Source: Flavobacterium sp. LC2016-23
Lineage (GTDB): Bacteria > Bacteroidota > Bacteroidia > Flavobacteriales > Flavobacteriaceae
DNA length: 64,000 nucleotides
Direction: 5' to 3'
Assembly (NCBI RefSeq): GCF_009674775.1
Contig: NZ_WKKE01000012.1
Coordinates: 1 to 64,000 of the forward strand
Shown here in pieces: positions 10,308 through 44,836 of the stretch (its first letter is position 1; every line of letters starts with the position of its first letter). The notes under the pieces were generated by a model. That model had not been told where the DNA came from and did no database searches. It saw only the letters and a list, made by a program, of their open reading frames with translations. A program made the position numbers and the translations under genes.

Positions 10308-10555
10308 AAGGTTCTGAGGTACTGAGGTTCTGAGATACAAAGGTGCAAAGGTGCAAAGGTGCAAAGGTACAAAGGTACAAAGGTACAAAGGTTTTCCGTA
10401 GAGGCGCACAGCAGTGCGTCTGAAATAAGGTATCAGGAATTGGGACATAGACGCACTGCTGTGCGCTTATACAGTAAAAATATTGCGGATATTCTTTGTT
10501 CCTCTTAATGACAAAGATTGAAAAAAATCTCAGAACCTTAGCATCTCAGAACCTT
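10308..10555. repeat. Tandem-word inverted-repeat locus (16-bp and 8-bp words) with inner hairpin
   Basis: Outer arms 10308-10334 and 10529-10555 are imperfect reverse complements (about 23 of 27 bp). The right side is a clean 16-bp tandem (10529-10544, 10545-10560). The left arm is followed by six 8-bp units (three AGGTGCAA, three AGGTACAA) at 10341-10388. An inner perfect 18-bp inverted repeat (10404-10421 with 10449-10466) is built on GCGCACAGCAGTGCGTCT. The spacer between DUF779 and araC genes holds no ORF. Confidence 0.82.
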
Positions 10556-16924: not shown

Positions 16925-17010
16925 AGATTTTGGATTTTAGATCTTAGACTTTAGATTTCAGATTCTTGGATCTTTGGAATTTGGAATTTAGTTTTTGGAA
17001 TTTTAAAACT
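16925..17010. repeat. Low-complexity tandem words between adaptor and pump genes
   Basis: Degenerate repeats built on TTTAGATYT and TTTGGAATT, with about 14-bp spacing at the 16930-16960 end. They fill the 95-bp spacer inside the efflux operon. No clear reverse-complement arm was found. Confidence 0.5.
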
Positions 17011-35481: not shown

Positions 35482-35664
35482 ATGGGAATGAATAAAAATA
35501 CCGTTCTAGGATGGGCAACTTTTATAATGGTACTTATGGGATTATTACTTATAGGTCTTGGAGCTTTCAGGTACAGTGATGTATCCGGCTGGGGATTTGT
35601 AGCAGTAGGTGTGGGTTTTTTTGCTAATGCCTGGGTTTTTAATGCTTTGAAAGGGAGAGTTTAG
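35482..35664 (+). CDS. Small membrane protein, CAL67264-like
   Basis: 60 residues with two membrane segments (ATFIMVLMGLLLIGLGAFRY and GWGFVAVGVGFFANAWVFNAL). It resembles a small conserved Flavobacteriia family that I know as CAL67264 family membrane protein. Function unknown. It is followed directly by the inverted-repeat cassette; without the cassette it would sit just upstream of the ABC-F gene. Confidence 0.8.
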   Translation: MGMNKNTVLGWATFIMVLMGLLLIGLGAFRYSDVSGWGFVAVGVGFFANAWVFNALKGRV

Positions 35665-35670
35665 TTGGTA

Positions 35671-36128
35671 GTTTGTTGTTTATAGTTTGTTGTTGTTGTG
35701 GCGAGAATAAATAAATTTGAAGATTTAGAAATTTGGCAAAAAGCTAGAGAATTATGTCAATATGTTGAGTTATTGATTCAAACAACAACTTTAAAAACAA
35801 ATTATTCACTTAAAGATCAAATTGAAAGAAGCTCAGGATCTGTAATGGATAATATTGCAGAAGGTTTTGAAAGAAATGGGAATAGAGAATTTATACAATT
35901 TTTGAGTATTGCAAAAGGTTCAGCCGGGGAAGTAAAATCGCAATCTTACAGAGCTTTTGATAAAAAGTTGATTTCAGAAGAACAATATTTGAAATTAAAT
36001 GAAATGACTGAAATAGAAAAAAATAAAATAGGAGCAATGATGAATTATTTAATGAATTGTGAAATCAAAGGACTTAAATTTAAATAATTTACCAATAAAT
36101 TAATAACAATAAACTAATAACAATAAAC
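35671..36128 (+). mobile_element. Candidate four-helix-bundle (IVS-type) cassette with terminal inverted repeats
   Basis: The left arm (35671-35697) and the reverse complement of the right arm (36102-36128) agree at 22 of 27 positions. Each arm is a two-unit tandem with 14-bp period (left TAGTTTGTTGTTTA; right TAATAACAATAAAC). Between them is a single gene, whose GTG start follows the left arm with no gap and whose stop lies 14 bp before the right arm. No target-site duplication is evident. It separates the small membrane protein gene from the ABC-F gene. Confidence 0.55.
35698..36087 (+). CDS. Four-helix-bundle protein (23S rRNA intervening-sequence family)
   Basis: 129 residues. The N-terminal FEDLEIWQKARELCQYVELL, then YSLKDQIERSSGSVMDNIAEGFER and EFIQFLSIAKGSAGEVKSQSYRA, are the signature of the family first known from intervening sequences in 23S rRNA and related to the Avd protein of diversity-generating retroelements. 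Start is GTG at 35698: the frame upstream has a TAG at 35683-35685 inside the left repeat and no earlier ATG. No reverse transcriptase or rRNA is in the window. The molecular role is unresolved; nucleic-acid binding is likely for Avd-like bundles. Confidence 0.9.
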   Translation: MARINKFEDLEIWQKARELCQYVELLIQTTTLKTNYSLKDQIERSSGSVMDNIAEGFERNGNREFIQFLSIAKGSAGEVKSQSYRAFDKKLISEEQYLKLNEMTEIEKNKIGAMMNYLMNCEIKGLKFK

Positions 36129-36133
36129 ATAAT

Positions 36134-37825
36134 ATGTCAGACGATAAGAAAGTAATTTTCTCAATGCAGAAATTGAGCAAAACCTATCAGGGAGCAGACA
36201 AGCCGATTCTTAAAAATATTTACCTGAGTTTCTTTTACGGTGCAAAAATTGGTATTCTTGGACTTAACGGTTCAGGAAAATCTTCTTTGTTAAAGATTAT
36301 TGCAGGAGTTGATAAAAACTATCAGGGAGATGTTGTTTTTCAACCTGGATATACTGTAGGGTATTTAGAACAGGAACCAATTCTTGATGATTCTAAGACG
36401 GTGATCGAAATTGTTCGTGAAGGCGCTGCTGAAACTATGGCAGTTTTAGAAGAATACAATCAAATTAATGATTTGTTTGGTCTTCCTGAAAATTACGAAG
36501 ATCAGGACAAAATGGACAAATTAATGGATCGTCAGGCTGCTTTACAAGACAAAATTGATGCTCTTGGTGCCTGGGAAATCGATACTAAATTAGAAATTGC
36601 AATGGATGCGTTGCGTACTCCGGAAGGTGATACGCCTATTAAAAATCTTTCAGGAGGGGAGCGCCGTCGTGTAGCTTTATGTCGTTTGTTATTACAACAA
36701 CCGGATGTATTGCTTTTGGATGAGCCTACCAACCACCTTGATGCGGAGTCTGTACTTTGGTTAGAGCAGCATTTGGCACAATATGCAGGAACTGTAATTG
36801 CGGTAACGCACGACAGGTATTTCCTTGATAATGTAGCAGGCTGGATTTTAGAGCTTGATAGAGGAGAAGGTATTCCGTGGAAAGGAAATTATTCTTCCTG
36901 GTTAGATCAAAAATCAAACCGTATGGCACAAGAGGAAAAGGTAGCTTCTAAACGCAGAAAAACATTAGAACGTGAGCTGGACTGGGTTCGTCAGGGAGCG
37001 AAAGGACGTCAGACGAAACAAAAAGCGCGTTTACAGAATTACGATAAATTATTGAACGAAGACCAAAAACAACTGGATGAAAATCTGGAAATTTATATCC
37101 CGAATGGTCCGCGTTTAGGTACCAATGTTATCGAAGCCAAAAATGTAGCCAAAGCTTTTGGAGACAAATTGCTGTATGATAATTTAAACTTCACTTTACC
37201 ACAAGCCGGAATTGTTGGAATTATCGGACCAAACGGTGCTGGTAAATCAACCATTTTCAAAATGATCATGGGAGAGCAAAAAACGGATAGCGGAGAATTT
37301 TCTGTGGGTGAAACGGTAAAGATCGCTTATGTAGATCAATCACATTCTAACATTGATCCGAATAAATCTATTTGGGAAAACTTTGCTGACGGTCAGGAAC
37401 TAATCATGATGGGTGGAAAACAAGTGAATTCAAGAGCTTATTTATCACGTTTCAATTTTGGTGGCGGTGAGCAGAATAAAAAAGTATCCATGTTGTCAGG
37501 GGGAGAACGTAACCGTTTGCACTTAGCAATGACATTGAAAGAAGAAGGAAATGTACTTTTACTGGATGAGCCAACGAATGATCTGGATGTAAACACACTT
37601 CGTGCACTGGAAGAAGGTTTGGAGAATTTTGCAGGTTGTGCCGTAATTATTTCACACGACAGATGGTTCTTAGACAGAATTTGTACGCACATTTTAGCTT
37701 TCGAAGGAGATTCTGAAGTTTATTATTTTGAAGGTGGTTTCTCTGAATACGAAGAAAACAAAAAGAAACGTTTAGGTGGTGATTTAACTCCAAAACGTTT
37801 GAAATACAGAAAGTTAATTAGATAA
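36134..37825 (+). CDS. ettA: ABC-F ATPase, EttA-like translational throttle protein
   Basis: 563 residues with two ABC ATPase domains and no membrane segment. Walker A GLNGSGKSS and GPNGAGKST; signature LSGGERRR and LSGGERNR; Walker B LLLDEPTNHLD and LLLDEPTNDLD. The linker (PtIM) between them is rich in Lys/Arg (RKTLERELDWVRQGAKGRQT), typical of EttA. EttA binds the ribosomal E site and gates entry into elongation according to ADP/ATP. Start ATG 36134 lies 5 bp after the cassette's right arm, which may have displaced its native leader. Confidence 0.92.
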   Translation: MSDDKKVIFSMQKLSKTYQGADKPILKNIYLSFFYGAKIGILGLNGSGKSSLLKIIAGVDKNYQGDVVFQPGYTVGYLEQEPILDDSKTVIEIVREGAAETMAVLEEYNQINDLFGLPENYEDQDKMDKLMDRQAALQDKIDALGAWEIDTKLEIAMDALRTPEGDTPIKNLSGGERRRVALCRLLLQQPDVLLLDEPTNHLDAESVLWLEQHLAQYAGTVIAVTHDRYFLDNVAGWILELDRGEGIPWKGNYSSWLDQKSNRMAQEEKVASKRRKTLERELDWVRQGAKGRQTKQKARLQNYDKLLNEDQKQLDENLEIYIPNGPRLGTNVIEAKNVAKAFGDKLLYDNLNFTLPQAGIVGIIGPNGAGKSTIFKMIMGEQKTDSGEFSVGETVKIAYVDQSHSNIDPNKSIWENFADGQELIMMGGKQVNSRAYLSRFNFGGGEQNKKVSMLSGGERNRLHLAMTLKEEGNVLLLDEPTNDLDVNTLRALEEGLENFAGCAVIISHDRWFLDRICTHILAFEGDSEVYYFEGGFSEYEENKKKRLGGDLTPKRLKYRKLIR

Positions 37826-44621: not shown

Positions 44622-44654
44622 GTCTTAATTTAATTTTTGAATGGTGTTCAGTAA

Positions 44655-44836
44655 CAGTCTCAGTCTCAGTCTCAGTCTCAGTTTTCAGTTACTGAACGTA
44701 GACTAAAAACTTTTTTTGCCACGAATTTCACGAATTTCCACTAATTTAAAAGTGGTATTTAAAAAGAAATTCGCACTAATTAGTGAAATTCGTGGCAACT
44801 TTTTTTACTCTAAACTGACACTGAAAACTGAGACTG
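44655..44836. repeat. Nested inverted-repeat element between porX and tsaE
   Basis: Four CAGTCT hexamers (44655-44678) lead into an outer arm 44673-44689 that is exactly reverse-complemented at 44820-44836 (17 bp). Inside, a second inverted repeat has the right arm 44778-44796 (AATTAGTGAAATTCGTGGC). Its left partner begins at 44718 and carries a 10-bp internal duplication (44718-44745). The outer word matches the one at 5481-5638. No ORF. Confidence 0.82.

Follow-up and report, generated by a model that had tools for sequence, protein, structure and literature searches.

In REPIN-RAYT systems, a gene is flanked by inverted short repeats, gene-less hairpins are dispersed, and the class of the repeat is tied to the clade of the protein. 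The intervening sequences (IVSs) of rRNA are excised by RNase III without ligation. Those of 23S rRNA have a sporadic distribution and are supposed to spread horizontally, and the protein family PF05635 has been described as functionally uncharacterized (PMC11270868). A resemblance of Avd, from the diversity-generating retroelements (DGRs), to PF05635 has also been noted (PMC10053308). TAACTGA and other heptamer repeats occur in Beggiatoaceae, Cyanobacteria and Bacteroidetes, and the TAACTGA heptamers are intergenic, often lie just before start codons, and are patchily distributed, suggesting transfer (PMC4679880). That study found no transfer mechanism for one such word and mentioned neither intervening sequences nor four-helix bundles (PMC4679880).

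A PF05635 gene between inverted word arrays

The window (the whole stretch of DNA analysed, 64,000 nt from Flavobacterium sp. LC2016-23, contig NZ_WKKE01000012.1) contains a cassette with the following features and neighbours.

35482..35664, + strand: upstream neighbour, a CAL67264 family membrane protein gene with its stop codon 6 nt before the left arm
35671..35697, + strand: left arm of GTT-class 7-nt words (GTTTGTTGTTTATAGTTTGTTGTTGTT); orthologous copies have ~16-58 nt of such words at this place
35698..36087, + strand: four-helix-bundle gene of PF05635 / TIGR02436, starting with GTG and encoding 129 aa, from profile matches
36088..36101, + strand: 14-bp spacer from the stop codon to the right arm, partly word-like, from the sequence
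36102..36128, + strand: right arm of complementary words (AATAACAATAAACTAATAACAATAAAC), from the arm alignment
36134..37825, + strand: downstream neighbour, an EttA-like ABC-F gene with its ATG 5 nt after the right arm

The cassette almost fills the gap between the upstream stop and the downstream start. Its two 27-bp arms matched as inverted repeats at 22 of 27 positions, a value beyond every shuffle and random pair tried (at most 19 for shuffled flanks, and at most 19 for 300 random window pairs of similar spacing). Both arms have a 14-bp period, equal to a pair of 7-nt words. The gene starts with the GTG at 35698, directly past the left arm, which carries an in-frame TAG, and ends at 36087, 14 bp ahead of the right arm. 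The inverted match, the period and the positions of start, TAG and stop had been described in the first-pass annotation and were confirmed here; the make-up of the arms as word arrays and the matching flanks of other family copies in the genome are additional to it. Paired as RNA, the arms gave -26.3 kcal/mol, compared with -12.4 ± 2.7 for shuffles.

The sole gene between the arms matched PF05635 at 108 bits and also TIGR02436. The predicted fold of its product (pLDDT 93.6) matched 2GSC, 2RLD, Avd 4DWL and chains from DGR ribonucleoprotein entries (TM ~0.65-0.75 for 4DWL and the DGR chains). Residues N52, E55 and R59 are invariant. The 2GSC and 2RLD crystal entries contain five chains each, and the window protein is probably a pentameric ring like these and Avd. 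We infer a nucleic-acid-binding ring that would read the words along the arms. To our knowledge, PF05635 has no established binding or catalytic function.

The cassette resembles each of the described systems in part, REPIN-RAYT systems (PMC3116915) among them. It carries the same protein family, 23S_rRNA_IVP (PF05635), as ORF-bearing 23S rRNA IVSs, and likewise has arms that can pair into a stem as RNA, a sporadic distribution and a supposed spread by horizontal transfer. However, IVSs lie inside an rRNA gene, whereas this cassette is free-standing between the CAL67264 and ettA genes, has clade- and locus-specific word arrays as arms, and has dispersed gene-less relatives. An Rfam search found no rRNA in the cassette region (the CAL67264/ettA neighbourhood) or near 15 other loci, and insertion inside rRNA was rejected. 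Descent from a 23S rRNA IVS is not supported. The inverted flanking repeats, dispersed gene-less hairpins and class-clade tie of REPIN-RAYT systems all have counterparts in the cassettes, but the RAYT partner is a Y1 (HUH) transposase and not a PF05635 four-helix bundle, and REPINs have one palindrome where the cassettes have tandem 7-8-nt words. The likeness to DGRs is that of an Avd-like protein, by fold only, and the LC2016-23 genome has no reverse transcriptase (PF00078) match; no pair of template and variable repeats was incidentally noticed. Classical transposons and MITEs have one fixed terminal inverted repeat, unlike the cassette arms, which differ per locus. TAACTGA heptamers are likewise 7-nt tandem words, intergenic and patchy. 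IVSs, REPIN-RAYT systems and Avd/DGRs each differ from the cassette in a tested defining feature, and the TAACTGA heptamers, as described, come without a link to a PF05635 gene. Read on the complement strand, TAACTGA is a GTT-class heptad (TCAGTTA), the word type of the window clade.

No report linking PF05635 to word arms or repeats was found in the open-access literature searched, and we rate the cassettes as a new kind for this reason. They would be a variant of the REPIN kind if that kind is taken to include every dispersed hairpin that has a partner gene.

Words, clades and gene-less arrays

The LC2016-23 genome has 13 PF05635 genes. The words differ from locus to locus (RAGNNNCT, GCCTAAA, TTAATCGT, GGTTGAT, CAGTTTT, GTTAAGA and TTTTAGA are among them), and the other copies of the family have matching flanks of their own, mostly inverted and some direct (L002, L009 and L013). 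When left flanks were compared with reverse-complemented right flanks, the score was 21.6 within loci and 12.2 between them, a difference reached by 0 of 100,000 permutations. Among 125 loci from ~50 Flavobacterium genomes, the inverse match was 21.2, compared with 11.8 against other loci and 12.4 for 730 control genes in the same DNA (p<1e-45). The values were 15.9 and 10.4 for 28 phylum-wide, mostly non-Flavobacterium loci, and 19.4 and 11.7 for 78 named loci, mostly from Bacteroidota; single ones of the latter are titled Acidobacteria, Armatimonadetes, Prosthecobacter or Lentisphaerae, and some of the MAG titles could be due to mis-binning. The search for locus-specific inverted arms at other family copies, suggested by the first-pass annotation, was positive both in the LC2016-23 genome and at the 125 genus loci. 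What had been seen as a candidate minimal cassette is one of many, and the arms, expected at equal distances from start and stop, lie at unequal ones.

The arm autocorrelation was 0.41 for a period of 7 nt (0.26 farther out) and 0.35 for one of 8 nt (0.24 farther out). Chance or AT-richness was rejected as the source of the arms, since shuffles, random pairs, mismatched loci and control genes all scored lower. The same arm pattern was present at a locus of GC 62% (L226). A general property of genes was likewise rejected; the 730 control genes speak against it, as do six Y1 transposase loci, where we found no such arms. Several distant PF05635 loci that we examined had no clear arms. Arms of the same locus paired as RNA at -24.4 kcal/mol and mismatched arms at -14.9. 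The PF05635 gene was co-directional with both neighbours at 116 of 125 loci, compared with 333 of 518 controls, and the family was present in 60/61 Flavobacterium genomes and 75/99 phylum-wide genomes sampled. At L002, a long tandem array of GCCTAAA and AAGCTGTAGGCC words, whose repeat unit measures several tens of bp, lies upstream of the PF05635 gene and before groEL. A Flavo-1 RNA (RF01705) match was seen at 5793-5871 of L244, less than 3 kb from a PF05635 locus.

Comparison supports a word class that tracks the protein clade across unrelated sites. For loci at different sites, arm composition and protein identity were correlated (Mantel r 0.123, p 0.0005; 0.021 for the far flanks), a weak correlation from crude trinucleotide profiles, for which periodic word tests were far sharper. 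These tests gave p values of 1e-4 to 1e-17 in six clades, which are optimistic because the words were picked after inspection of the clades, and the test failed in clade 9. GTTT heptads were found at 38/76 loci of the window clade and 6/169 elsewhere, and their complement on the same strand at 3/76. The corresponding counts in the cognate clade and elsewhere were 13/24 and 0/221 for GCT heptads, 11/17 and 3/228 for CAGT heptads, and 9/9 and 18/236 for AGA heptads; the loci, genomes and pairs in all these comparisons are related and not phylogenetically independent. Several of the signature words keep a fixed strand, and most additional loci of the L009 clade had CAGT-type words. Within groups of orthologous loci, the right arm matched its own left arm best (within-site permutation z 5.7-8.1), and the arms therefore change in concert.

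Arrays of such words also occur without a gene. Five lie in the window, none with an assigned strand.

10309..10396: RAGNNNCT / CAAAGGTG 8-mers as in the L001 arms
16926..16955: TTTTAGA as in L012
20836..20869: TTTAGATN, resembling L003
25987..26024: AGA-type words
44647..44687: CAGTCTC as in L009, with an inverted partner nearby

A palindrome like AGACGCACTGCTGTGCGTCT adjoins a word array at 10400-10460, possibly a separate REP-like repeat. The density of period-7/8 arrays was 43 per Mb in 464 kb of the LC2016-23 genome (13 PF05635 genes) and 2.5 per Mb in a genome without a PF05635 gene, in a comparison of four genomes. Six of the 21 gene-less arrays checked in the LC2016-23 genome had a clear inverted partner. 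AAAGTC arrays had a median of 7 per genome with the cognate clade and 0 without it (p 4e-6; p 0.26 for the reversed control pattern), and CAGTTTT-type words were likewise more numerous with the cognate gene (p 0.002). AAAGTC arrays were still found in 38/80 genomes without the cognate clade, and the tie of dispersed words to the cognate gene is an association that is not absolute. One Flavobacterium genome (G016) had 342 AAAGTCN triplet matches, far above the other genomes sampled, and is a candidate for a recent expansion of gene-less words.

Occupied, empty and exchanged sites

The ettA site held the cassette in ~10 of the ~395 Flavobacterium genomes that matched the region. Relatives with empty CAL67264|ettA sites, the check proposed for mobility, were indeed found, with ~40-95 bp between the genes and in most cases no words. 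Close relatives at ~87% flank identity had a short intergenic region in place of the cassette. The clean empty sites that were anticipated thus hold for most ettA sites, but a simple model of this kind fails at two others, where relatives have gene-less word hairpins. These are the sdhA|sdhB (L010) and L005 sites, at which several close relatives have compact hairpins, mostly of other word classes and mostly folding well below shuffles. No target-site duplication could be defined, the occupied and empty pairs being too distant to fix the junctions.

Frameshifts or stops were present in 5/10 copies at the ettA site, and alongside these pseudogene copies the first and second codon positions of the PF05635 gene are conserved. 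At third codon positions, its mean identity across species was 0.76, compared with 0.55-0.67 for holA, CAL67264 and ettA, and it lay above all three flanking genes in 38/45 pairs. In host-gene trees, the ettA-occupied genomes were interspersed with empty ones. Taken together, the third-position excess and the interspersed occupancy point to repeated arrival at the ettA site more than to vertical descent alone.

A whole 458-bp cassette of the window type, arms included, was found at 82% identity at a second location, between folE and cysS in a relative (G327). This site is occupied by another clade in the LC2016-23 genome, and by the window clade in its nearest relative (G331). Three further sites in G331 had genes that were only ~71% identical despite 92-95% flank identity. 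Five LC2016-23 sites had no counterpart gene in G331, and four of these were examined: two had either a word hairpin or compact intergenic DNA, one had other reading frames, and the L009 site spanned a longer stretch. At the L008 site of G331, G382, G228 and G200 (L388, L396, L406 and L407), we noted other short reading frames that are not PF05635 and by eye resemble a toxin-antitoxin pair of the RelE/ParE type. The right flank of L196 (5426-5500) has words of the window class and, after them, words resembling those of the other clade found at this site in LC2016-23; the second set is possibly a remnant of an earlier occupant. Mobility of the cassette is well supported by these sequence comparisons, and the empty sites and the second location bear out the earlier description of a free-standing gene-plus-arms unit that moves.

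A proposed REPIN-like system with an Avd-like partner

We interpret the cassettes, with a probability of about 0.6, as a system of mobile hairpins that resembles REPINs but in which an Avd-like four-helix bundle, and not a transposase, would be the partner. Comparison among loci supports a unit in which the PF05635 gene lies in the loop between inverted arrays of 7-8-nt words, and in which the arms belong to the unit and change together. It also supports cassettes that appear, vanish and swap class at fixed intergenic sites, and that arrive in different species at a common site. In this interpretation, the protein would recognise its own word class in hairpins of single-stranded DNA or RNA and promote the copying or insertion of hairpins bearing it. 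The hairpins might travel with the gene, as autonomous elements, or without it, like REPINs, and host enzymes would cut and join the strands. Since the arms are able to pair around the gene in the transcript, the cassette should be a large hairpin in the operon mRNA, which may be cut out like the rRNA intervening sequences.

Several observations would also suit an RNA-level module, in which the arms would be maintained as an RNA stem separating the gene from the operon transcript. The stem might perhaps be a protein-binding site for TRAP-like autoregulation, with relocation left to ordinary recombination and horizontal transfer. This is consistent with the co-directional placement in operons, the strong pairing of the arms as RNA, their co-variation, the codon positions conserved beside pseudogene copies, and the five-chain crystal entries of relatives. 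By itself, however, the module leaves unexplained the dispersed gene-less cognate words, the same-site arrivals in distant species that the flanking genes do not match, and the wholesale swaps of class, and we consider it unlikely. The word hairpins might instead be independent, with the PF05635 gene inserting into loops of a preferred class, as IVSs do in 23S rRNA helices. Such targeting agrees with the word hairpins of relatives at two sites without the gene and with the commonness of gene-less arrays, but those hairpins are mostly of other word classes, most empty ettA sites have no words, and cassettes arrive at a new place with arms of their own. We think it quite improbable.

An enzyme encoded elsewhere (a transposase, a reverse transcriptase or another) might move the hairpins, PF05635 being a passenger or accessory like Avd in DGRs. 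The Avd-like fold points that way, as do the Y1 or reverse transcriptase genes present in many PF05635-bearing genomes. Among the families surveyed (Y1 and PF00078), however, PF00078 has no match in the LC2016-23 genome, and four genomes (G041, G054, G068 and G069) have neither Y1 (PF01797) nor PF00078 at the thresholds used, yet carry 6-9 PF05635 genes each. A requirement for either enzyme, Y1 transposase or PF00078 reverse transcriptase, in the same genome is thus not supported, and we give this account very little weight. In the window gene itself only PF05635 was found, and no transposase was recognised in the cassette. The new mechanism proposed in the first-pass annotation, with no need of a transposase in the usual sense, is an inference. 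The arms might, lastly, be low-complexity DNA of AT-rich intergenic regions, produced by slippage and unrelated to the gene. The words are tandem, their copy number shifts fast, and arrays exist without a gene, so slippage may lengthen arms. As a complete account it is hardly credible, being refuted by the clade-specific words and by the locus-matched inversion above mismatched-locus and control-gene baselines; the pattern at the GC-rich L226 and the armless Y1 transposase loci also argue against it.

Beyond the REPIN-like interpretation, we suggest tentatively, and with more doubt than belief, that PF05635 proteins might be rings that read words and, with no transposase involved, mobilise hairpins of their own; each clade would read one class of 7-8-nt word and copy its gene-bearing and gene-less hairpins alike. 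If so, many of the heptamer repeats dispersed in Bacteroidota, and perhaps in other phyla, would stem from PF05635. Such a reading would make sense of the fold common to PF05635 and Avd. If it holds, a family very common in Bacteroidota would gain a role, the cassettes would be a mobile element on a new principle, in which the words vary and follow the clade of the protein, and heptamer repeats of open origin would have a testable source.
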